NCBI GenBank assembly: GCA_025458025.1
Contig: JALOTF010000023.1
Span: 1-61,381, forward strand
DNA length: 61,381 bases
Reading direction: 5' to 3'
DNA from: Beijerinckiaceae bacterium
GTDB lineage: Bacteria > Pseudomonadota > Alphaproteobacteria > Rhizobiales > Beijerinckiaceae
Part shown: positions 31,953 through 34,285 of the stretch, one piece after another
Layout: every line of letters begins with the position of its first letter
Position numbering within the stretch: position 1 is the first letter of the stretch
The notes under the pieces: generated by a model
Seen by the model: only the letters and a program-made list of their open reading frames with translations
What the model was told of the DNA's origin: nothing
Databases searched by the model: none
Position numbers and translations under genes: made by a program

Positions 31953-32840
31953 ATGTTCGGGGTCATTGCCATCAAGGCTGCCCGCGCTCTGGCCACTTTG
32001 CTGATTTGCGTGACGGCAGTGTTTGTCGTGTTTCGGCTTGCCGGCGATCCGGCTGACATGCTGCTGCCGGATGACACGCCTGCCGAGATCAAGGCAGAGT
32101 ATCGCGTCCGCTGGGGGCTTGAGGGCTCCATTTCCGAACAATACTGGCGCTGCATGGCTGCCCTCAGCCGAGGGGATCTCGGTATCTCATTTGCCGATGG
32201 GCGATCGGCCTTCGATGTCGTTATGGAGGCAGTGCCCAACACCTTCCTCCTTGGCATCTCTGCTATCATTCTCGCCTTGGTGGTTGGCTTTCCGGCGGGA
32301 ATTCTCGCGGCCCTGCGCCATAACCGGATGGCGGATCGCCTGCTCATGGCTTTCGCTGTGGTGGGCTTCTCGGTGCCGAGTTTTTTCTTCGCGATCCTGC
32401 TGATCCTCACCTTTTCACTGACTCTCAGATGGCTTCCAGCCGCTGGTACCGAGACTGTGCGGCACATGATCCTGCTGACCCTCGCGCTTTCGGCAGGGCT
32501 CATCGGCAAGCTTGCCCGCTACACACGCACGGCGATGCTCGATGTGCTGGGCCAGCCCTATATGCGCACGGCGAAGGCCAAGGGAGTCGGGCACCTCATG
32601 GCCATGCTCCGCCATGCCCTGCCGAACGCAGCCGCCCCGATCCTGATGTTTCTGGGGATCGAGATTGGCCTGATCCTGACCGGGGCTGCCGTGGTGGAGA
32701 CGATCTTCGGCTGGCCGGGTTTGGGGCGTTTGCTGGTCTCATCGGCGGCCGCGCGCGATCTGCCGGTTGTGCAGGGTGTCATCCTGCTCGTGGCGCTTGT
32801 CATTGTGATTCCGATCTCGCGGTTGATATCCTGCATGCCT
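31953..32840 (+). pseudogene. DppB-type ABC permease, frameshifted and cut by IS
   Basis: About 296 codons of a peptide/nickel ABC transporter inner-membrane permease. Visible: an N-terminal helix (ALATLLICVTAVFVVFRLAGD), a RWGLEGSISEQYW segment, FSVPSFFFAILLILTF, the EAA-type coupling region (YMRTAKAKGVGHLMAMLRHA) and IFGWPGLGRLLVSSAAARDLP. Near 32810 the family sequence (DLAVDILHAL) continues in another frame, meaning one base is missing, and the last ~15-20 residues are replaced by an IS3-family element. No binding protein, second permease or ATPase lies nearby. The gene is an isolated remnant in a degraded mobile region. Confidence 0.75.
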
Positions 32841-32954
32841 TGCTTGAACCGCCCCCTGTTTTTCGGAGGCTCCAACTTCCAAGTAGGATGGAGCCATGAC
32901 GAGCAAAACGACGAACAAGTTTTCCCCCGAGGTGCGCGAACGCGCTGTCAGATT

Positions 32955-32986
32955 GATCCCGTAGGGATTGCGCGTAGCGTGGGATC
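32955..32986 (-). repeat. 32-bp palindromic element, copy 1 (inside transposase)
   Basis: Bounded by GATCCC and GGGATC, with core GGGATTGCGCGTAGCG on the plus strand. Its reverse complement matches the element at 33489-33520 at 28 of 32 positions. It replaces about two codons of OrfA by nine, keeps the frame length but introduces TAG. Read on its minus strand it encodes (I)PRYAQSLRDQ, almost the peptide (PRFAQSLRDQ) encoded by the other copy. Confidence 0.7.
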
Positions 32987-33210
32987 ACGAAGGGGATTAC
33001 CCCTCGCGCCGGACGGCGTGCCAGTCGATTGCCGGCAAGATCGGCTGCTCGACACACACGCTGCTTGACTGGGTCAAGAAGACCGAAGTCGACAGCGGCA
33101 AGCGGGCTGGCATTTCCACCGATGTCGCCGAGAAGATGAAGGCGCTGGAGCGCGAGAACCGTGAGCTCCGGCAGACCAACGAGATCCTGCGCAAGGCGCG
33201 CTTATTTTGC

Positions 33211-33250
33211 GCCTCCTCTCGGGGAATGAAGGCATTCCCCTGTCGGGCAA
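33211..33250 (+). repeat. Second type of palindromic insert in the transposase
   Basis: A perfect inverted repeat GGGGAATG (33221-33228) and CATTCCCC (33233-33240) with a 4-base loop. It interrupts the sequence of related transposases between the end of the zipper region and the ELDRP-like segment. Together with a two-base loss just upstream, it fuses the OrfA and OrfB frames. The flanks (CTCTC, TGTCGGGC) probably also belong to the insert. Confidence 0.45.
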
Positions 33251-33488
33251 AGGGCGGAGCTCGACCGCCCGTTAAAGCGATGATCGCGTTCATTGACGAT
33301 CACCGTGGAGCCTATGGGGTCGAGCCGATCTGCAAGGTGTTGCCGATTGCCCTCTCCACATACTTCGATCATCGGGCGAAGCAGGCCGATCCCGGCAGGC
33401 GATCGGCAAGAGCGCGCCGGGAAGCGGTGTCGCGGCCAACGATCAGCCGCGTCGTCAAGGACAATCTCAAGGTCTACGGCGCCCGTAA

Positions 33489-33520
33489 GGTCCCGCGCTT
33501 CGCGCAATCCCTTCGGGATC
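33489..33520 (+). repeat. 32-bp palindromic element, copy 2 (inside transposase)
   Basis: Bounded by GGTCCC and GGGATC with core CGCGCAATCCC. 28 of 32 bases are identical to the reverse complement of the element at 32955-32986. It adds the nine-residue block PRFAQSLRD where related transposases have about two residues (GARKV-WR-QMNREG), so the net gain is 21 bases and the reading frame is kept. Confidence 0.7.
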
Positions 33521-33676
33521 AGATGAACCGGGAGGGTGTCTCTGTCGCGCGATACACAGTCGAGCGGCTCATGCGCGTCATGGGGCTGCACGGGGTCATT
33601 CGCGGGAAGGCGATCCGAACCACGACGCTGGACAAGGCTGCCCCTTGCCCGCTGGATCATGTGAACCGCCAGTTCC

Positions 33677-33712
33677 CCAGGATTGCAGGACGCAATCCGT
33701 TCCGGATGACTA
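33677..33712 (+). repeat. Possible diverged third copy of the palindromic element
   Basis: It contains GATTGC/GCAATC (33681-33697) and a CGCAATCC-TTC-GGAT core like that of the two 32-bp copies. It adds about 12 residues (PRIAGRNPFRMT) in frame before the WVSDF strand of the integrase core. The similarity is weaker and could be coincidental. Confidence 0.4.
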
Positions 33713-34285
33713 TGGCGCCGTCACCGAACCGGCTCTGGGTCTCCGACTTCACCTATGTCAGCACCTGGTCGGGCTTCGTCCATGTGGCCTTCGTCATCGA
33801 CGCCTATGCCAGACGGATCGTTGGCTGGCGCGTATCGCGAACGCCACATGCGAGCTTCGTGCTCGATGCCCTCAAGCAGGCTTTGCACGAGCGCAGACCC
33901 GTCAATCGCGGCGGACTGGTGCATCACATCGATCGTGGCAGCCAATACGTCTCGATCAAGTACTCGGAGCGGCTTGCTGAAGCCGGGATCGAGCCGTCAG
34001 TCGGCAGCGTTGGCGACAGTTATGACAATGCCCTCGCAGAGACCATAAACGGGCTTTACAAGGCCGAGGTCATCCATCGGCGCGGGCCTTGGCGATCCTT
34101 CGAGGCTGTCGAGTTCGCGACGCTGGAATGGGTCGATTGGTTCAATCACCGCCGCCTGATGAGGCCTATCGGCGATATCCCACCTGCCGAAGCCGAGGAG
34201 CGCTACTACGCCATGCTGGACCAGCCAGCCATCGCCGCATAACTTAACCCAAATGGCCTCCAGCAAACCCGGGGCGGTTCAAGCA

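Follow-up and report, generated by a model that had tools for sequence, protein, structure and literature searches.

Rickettsia palindromic elements (RPEs), as first described, are about 150 bp long and carry conserved peptides (PMC10969869, section consulted), and RPE-4 and RPE-6 are counted as short CGTC REPs in the sections of PMC3733652 on which we draw. Those sections describe CGTC REPs as mostly intergenic sequences with a single stem of 8–9 bp, a loop of 4–5 nt and a CGTC, TGTC or CCTC head, report REPs and other palindromes inside the repair and tRNA-synthetase genes of other bacteria, and treat the spread of short, transposase-less palindromes through bacterial genomes as an open question. 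Elements made of two adjacent hairpins lie within genes, without being spliced, in the mitochondria of fungi and sponges; yeast GC clusters make a small demand on their target, with AG beside GC42, and palindromes merge (PMC2800124 and PMC4478555, sections consulted). The titles and abstracts of the open-licence literature on palindromes and hairpin elements in genes and transposases that we searched contain no description of the double-hairpin family reported here.

The stretch of DNA analysed here (the window) is the whole of contig C10 (61,381 bp) of the 3.29-Mb draft genome of a Beijerinckiaceae bacterium (G000). A preliminary description had likened two short elements in an IS3-family insertion sequence (IS) of the window to RPEs. 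The likeness holds as a way of working: the double hairpin that we describe is palindromic, lies in protein genes of an alphaproteobacterial host and is often read through in frame, as in mutL of two genomes (G007 and G006). It does not extend to the unit, which at about 26 nt, with two short hairpins, is far shorter than the ~150 bp of the first RPEs, replaces a few bases, is read in frames that differ from site to site where RPEs have a conserved peptide, and sits mostly in ISs (16 of 19 copies), with size changes of +20 or +22 at two of nine measured IS sites. The CGTC REPs of alphaproteobacteria, which have no dedicated transposase, are likewise short palindromes whose stems start with A-T, and some lie inside DNA-repair and tRNA-synthetase genes (PMC3733652, same sections); in the genomes with the double hairpin the enzyme class searched for, Y1 transposases, is absent. 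The head, stem and loop that define them are not those of the double hairpin, which has stems of 5 and 4 bp, 3-nt loops and the left neighbour NYG and is found mostly in ISs. Mitochondrial double-hairpin elements and yeast GC clusters (same sections of PMC2800124 and PMC4478555) resemble it in form, with neighbouring hairpin pairs scattered over genes and spacers, and also in the small target demand, the merging of palindromes and the unspliced presence in genes, although they are mitochondrial. By analogy, the double hairpin appears to work like RPEs or mitochondrial double-hairpin elements, yet it lacks the defining features of the described bacterial families. We consider it likely that each of the two segments is a copy of a mobile micro-element about 26 nt long, non-autonomous and confined to this genus, and that the mobile-repeat reading is right as a whole.

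Four insertions in an IS3-family element

The preliminary observation is confirmed. The segment at 32955–32986 equals the reverse complement of 33489–33520 at 28 of 32 positions, and the 28-base core pattern, allowed 3 mismatches at most, matches the window twice (0.00 matches expected from 100 shuffles). We aligned the IS with five full-length relatives, namely a copy from the same genus (G008) and plasmid copies from Bradyrhizobium, Ancylobacter, Aminobacter (with an early stop in OrfB) and Roseomonas; a reversed row (G074) and a partial row (G029) were left out of the five. The window IS measures 1,437 bp against about 1,320 bp in these relatives, and its 115-bp surplus over the uninserted, 1,322-bp G008 copy is the sum of four insertions (+21, +37, +21 and +36), all of which are missing from all five relatives (Table 1). 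Insertion 4 is missing from the copies in G029 and G014 as well.

These alignments bear on whether the segments simply belong to the conserved make-up of these transposases or reflect natural variation in their length. That the site of copy 2 is filled in three species would suit such variation, but the five relatives, one of them of the same genus, lack every insertion, and the 28-mer also occurs in sequence of IS3, IS481, IS630 and IS5 type and in mutL. The alignments and the presence of the 28-mer in several IS types and mutL refute this explanation, to which we give next to no weight. Intact relatives had been proposed as the check on which the mobile-repeat idea might fail; both +21 segments are missing from all five, and the idea stands.

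Some details of the preliminary description need amending. Copy 1 keeps the phase of length, as had been said, but it brings an in-frame TAG (32962–32964) into OrfA, so that translation from the usual ATG ends after 22 codons. OrfA and OrfB lie in different frames in all five relatives; in the window, insertion 2 brings them into a single frame, and the remaining 424-aa frame reads through insertions 2, 3 and 4. The GATCCC/GGGATC-like ends ascribed to the elements belong in part to the host: on the right side of copy 1, GGATCAC is native. The peptides PRYAQSLRDQ and PRFAQSLRDQ are both readable, but for the first copy solely on the strand antisense to the transposase. The different palindrome seen at 33211 is indeed a separate insertion, of net +37, for which we found a single relative within the genus, in an IS copy of G007 at the corresponding place (G007:C14:884046). 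The site at 33677, described as related, is a fourth insertion, of +36; by eye it has a GCAATCC-TTC-GGAT-like hairpin in common with the double-hairpin family and nothing else.

We note that a putative ABC-transporter permease frame, named from its appearance, extends into the IS at its left end (31953–32844), and that the sequence 3′ of the IS looks unrelated to this frame and contains a possible integrase on the minus strand.

Table 1 Features of the IS3-family element in the window, and locations of the 19 strong copies of the double hairpin
Feature	Position or location	Strand	Basis
IS3-family IS with four insertions	32845..34281	+	inverted ends; relatives aligned; NCBIfam NF033516 IS3, 6.2e-89
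Left inverted repeat of IS	32845..32870	+	inverted-repeat pair; ends aligned to relatives
Right inverted repeat of IS	34256..34281	-	inverted-repeat pair; ends aligned to relatives
OrfA start, closed after 22 codons by TAG in first double hairpin	32896..32964	+	translation
Double-hairpin copy 1, for 5 bases after native ATG, net +21	32956..32981	+	relatives aligned
Insertion 2, different palindrome, net +37, outer borders approximate	33210..33250	+	relatives aligned
Palindrome of insertion 2, GGGGAATG..CATTCCCC	33221-33240		
Double-hairpin copy 2, for 5 bases after native CTG, net +21	33494..33519	-	relatives aligned
Insertion 4, net +36, outer borders approximate	33676..33713	+	relatives aligned
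Hairpin of insertion 4, GGATTGC-AGGAC-GCAATCC	33680-33698		
Remaining open frame, 424 aa; HTH_Tnp_1, HTH_21 and rve domains	32968..34242	+	translation; domain search
Hosts of IS3 type	window (twice), C120, G007:C6 (twice), G007:C14, G002, G006:C5, G014, G006:C10 (weakly)		
Hosts of IS481 type	G007:C1 (twice), G007:C2, G004		
Host of IS630 type	G010		
Host of IS5 type	G007:C1:110192		
mutL hosts, in frame in both	G007, G006		
Copy just past the stop codon of a gene	G008		

A unit of two adjacent hairpins

The unit reads ATCCCGNAGGGAT-T-GCGCGAAGCGY-G, its hairpins being ATCCC-GNA-GGGAT and GCGC-GAA-GCGY, and its two window copies have opposite orientations. In an alignment of 15 copies, 96.3% of the pair cells are paired and two-sided changes affect 3 pairs of the first hairpin (4 cells); for each of these measures, and for the covariation score, 0 of 500 shuffles were as high, with the caveat that related sequences can beat shuffles without any structure. 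Further pair types show no excess in this alignment, 161 of 500 shuffles having reached the same number. Folding by itself is weak: among eight stretches, z falls below −2 in the G008 stretch alone, the window copies giving −1.8 and −1.6 and the G007 mutL stretch +0.96, and the best fold of window copy 1 does not form the first hairpin. With A, C or G as the variable base, the consensus contains no stop in any of the six frames.

Replacement of a few bases beside a YG dinucleotide

Nine distinct IS sites could be aligned with an empty relative (12 filled copies and 29 copy–relative pairs, of which two, copy 2 with L010 and with L042, were dropped because the ungapped matcher had misplaced them); the IS5 copy and G006:C10 lie outside this set. 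At these sites the element stands for 4–6 bases and adds a net +21 at seven sites, +22 at one (the IS481 ERM-NRTIK site, with three copies) and +20 at one (G014). A native YG dinucleotide lies just left of the element at all nine (background 0.174, p about 1.5e-7), a rule that was noticed on the same sites that test it. The G002 copy, which counted alone gives +22 with a start not at YG, was counted with the site that it has in common with G007:C6a (+21). Because the 28-mer tends to end in bases that match the native ones, we take the unit to be about 26 nt and to replace about five; the borders are read from diverged relatives (16–28 of 30 flank bases identical), so that 1–2 bases at each end are uncertain. 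No target-site duplication was seen at the nine sites.

At the level of aligned DNA, these comparisons show repeated, site-similar, replacement-type insertion of one small unit. Nine empty and filled pairs with the same unit, a near-equal small replacement and the same dinucleotide in different IS families form a signature that any mechanism must explain, and this signature tells a frame kept by selection apart from one kept by a nearly fixed size change. Since two of the nine sites shift the frame and copy 1 brings a TAG, the keeping of frame looks like a near-fixed size change and not like selection; the RPE-like frame-keeping proposed at the outset stems from the near-constant +21.

A miniature inverted-repeat element (MITE) moved by a resident DDE transposase would be geneless, as this repeat is, and several IS types are present in these genomes. 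However, DDE-type MITE insertion leaves a target duplication, whereas here no duplication is seen and 4–6 bases are missing, and the unit consists of two separate hairpins and not of one pair of terminal inverted repeats; we regard a MITE as extremely improbable.

The anatomy of the sites leads us to suggest a different route, as something possible rather than probable. The double hairpin would be copied through a hairpin-folded single-stranded intermediate, either ssDNA or the cDNA of a transcript, and the single strand would be patched in beside YG, taking out about five bases, by an enzyme given in trans that would be neither a RAYT nor an IS200-type transposase. A folded strand of this kind would fit because a few bases are lost at the sites. 

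With a net gain of mostly 21 and a consensus free of stops for the three variable bases named above, the unit often puts nine codons in place of two, so that tolerant sites such as the MutL loop can keep it; dispensable IS DNA would accumulate and retain it, and IS copies would then transport it.

Distribution among genomes

A pattern search of 299 genomes gave matches in four, every one of the same genus. A looser pattern extended the alignment to the 15 copies mentioned above, from which we built a covariance model (R1). Across the 17 genomes of the genus, R1 gave 19 hits at E<0.002 (strong copies) in eight genomes, with eight in G007, three each in G000 and G006 and one each in G002, G004, G008, G010 and G014; the other nine genomes lack strong copies. 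Of the 19, 15 were among the sequences used to build the model and four are new, and genomic context played no part in detection. R1 hits above E 0.002 were left uncounted, and among them the G014 IS3 copy and a G005 mutL copy look real. G007 and G010 are metagenome assemblies. With stricter filters and 150 relatives, R1 gave hits in eight of the 17 genus genomes and in one of the 133 others, the lone outside hit (G128) being dropped as probably due to chance, as it lies within long open frames and has no visible insertion signature.

Other copies had been named as a further check, and they exist. In the whole window genome the 32-base pattern, with up to 3 mismatches, has three matches. The third belongs to a truncated IS copy on contig C120, which has the same insertion 1 and an identity of 88% over 168 bases; sixteen further strong copies lie in sister species. 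A donor outside the genus was considered and rejected: among 84,980 genomes a degenerate pattern matched six contigs, three from two "Methylobacterium sp." assemblies and three scattered over a Betaproteobacteria assembly, a Gammaproteobacteria assembly and a Blautia; viral contigs gave no match.

Like the GTAG REPs and REPINs that accompany RAYTs, the unit is short, palindromic and non-autonomous. A RAYT-mobilised REP/REPIN family, whose single-stranded palindromes are mobilised by a Y1 HUH transposase in the manner of IS200/IS605, would also suit the short left-hand target preference and the lack of a target duplication, and REPs inside repair and tRNA-synthetase genes (PMC3733652, sections consulted) compare with mutL and valS here. 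Yet a search for Y1 transposases (RAYT, IS200; PF01797) found none in the 17 genus genomes, with 5 of 14 controls positive, the 15-copy alignment has no GTAG head, and positive genomes hold just 1–8 strong copies. Target bases are missing here, and IS200-type insertion is not known to remove any. We therefore judge this explanation very improbable. We also considered, and rejected, an abundant REP family: in 395 kb of four genomes plus the window, inverted repeats were in no clear excess over Markov shuffles, one per stretch (observed/shuffled, G007 83/71, G006 30/28, G005 16/16, G002 28/31, window 17/24).

Host sites and history of the copies

The strong copies comprise 16 in IS sequence (one placed weakly), two in mutL and one just after a gene, and represent 13 distinct sites, 11 of them in IS sequence; several sites are common by descent, so insertion events are fewer than copies. 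Host types were assigned as follows: L051, with no match among plasmids, by similarity to the window IS; G006:C10:1142 by a 106-base match to IS3 genes directly adjoining; and L044, L049 and L043, for which hmmscan gave no family (L043, Pfam only), through DNA similarity to IS630 and IS481 records. The profile hits of L167 (IS5), L146 and L051 are under the curated cut-offs. The rve domain, a proxy for IS3 and IS481 genes, has 37 matches in the 17 genomes (31 above cut-off), which makes IS3/IS481-type elements a small share of the DNA. For an assumed IS share of 5% of DNA, 11 of 13 sites gives p about 3e-13, and against intergenic DNA alone, with an assumed share of one third, 11 of 12 gives p about 4e-5. 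The idea of a small, geneless palindromic family that enters coding DNA is upheld, but its spread "through coding DNA" was put too broadly, since 16 of the 19 strong copies are in IS sequence.

The unit could be a replacement-type mobile micro-element with putative machinery of its own, a 26-nt double hairpin written over about five bases beside YG and aimed at transposase genes or newly arrived DNA, which would spread and also disable or tag resident ISs; we think this unlikely.

The history of the window copy points to descent as well as insertion. A diverged G007 IS (L185) has insertions 2 and 3 in common with the window but not insertion 1; at the site of copy 2, G007 likewise has an element (L051/L185) and G014 a partly deleted one (L174), the G014 copy having a shortened insertion 3 and no insertion 4; insertion 1 is common to the C120 copy, and insertion 4 is found in the window alone. 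About 1 kb of flank on the G007, G014 and C120 copies does not match the window flanks. The partial sharing of insertions and the unmatched flanks suggest that insertions were gained stepwise, with the IS lineage carrying them along; alternatively, repeated insertion at the same site may account for insertions that look shared by descent.

Taken further, descent and IS movement could explain the whole pattern, IS lineages having been seeded long ago with a 26-mer that is barely or not at all mobile today. Shared sites favour this (IS481 site b and the copy-2 site, each filled in three copies), as does the copying of an IS with another palindrome inside it within G029, where two copies, 98.2% identical over 1,337 bases, have that palindrome at the same site, which indicates that an IS can be copied with a palindrome inside. 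One insertion, however, cannot explain eleven IS sites in several transposase types together with mutL and a palindrome after a gene. With so many distinct sites the unit did move at some time, and we hold old seeding to be decidedly improbable.

Nesting, mutL and other palindromes

The G008 copy is nested in a 53-nt palindrome, GATCCCCTCCGGACG...CGTCCGGGGATC, and a palindrome of the same type in mutL of G001 is 32 nt long, a difference that, by eye, is again 21. The G008 stretch folds into a three-way junction with z −3.3 (1 of 200 shuffles as stable). In G007 mutL, the 28-mer takes, by eye, the position that a 7-base apex has in the palindrome of G003 and G016.

MutL has an open frame in all 17 genus genomes. 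Its loop is 8 residues long in five species (G002, G011, G012, G013 and G015) and longer in twelve, and in 11 of these twelve (11 of 17 species) we see by eye palindromic DNA of various kinds, none being seen in G014. The palindromes are in tandem in G009 and G006 (loci L095–L111; the window genome's own locus is G000:C26:2617-3306). Folded as RNA and compared with mononucleotide shuffles, the MutL loops reach z −2.8 at best, most lying between −1.4 and +1.5; these scores are unimpressive, so that the palindromes there rest on a reading of the letters.

In G005, the valyl-tRNA synthetase gene (valS) has an in-frame insert with a type-B palindrome (L114, G005:C13:31158). A search pattern for type B was rejected: it gave 11 matches in 5 of 17 genomes, but its reversed control gave 7 hits in 4 genomes. 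mutL, and valS in one species, join the genes that host in-frame palindromes.

Further palindromes occur in related ISs. In G029, which belongs to another genus, a related IS3 (L013, L188, L189) has another kind of palindrome, CCTTCGACGAGCTCAGGATGAGG, some 20 bases away from where the window carries insertion 4; it amounts to +21 in one IS copy, and the other copy has one G more. The G007 IS L185 (G007:C14:884 kb) has an additional palindrome of a further type, CCCGCCTTCGCGGGAACAAG, at a place where the window copy has no palindrome.
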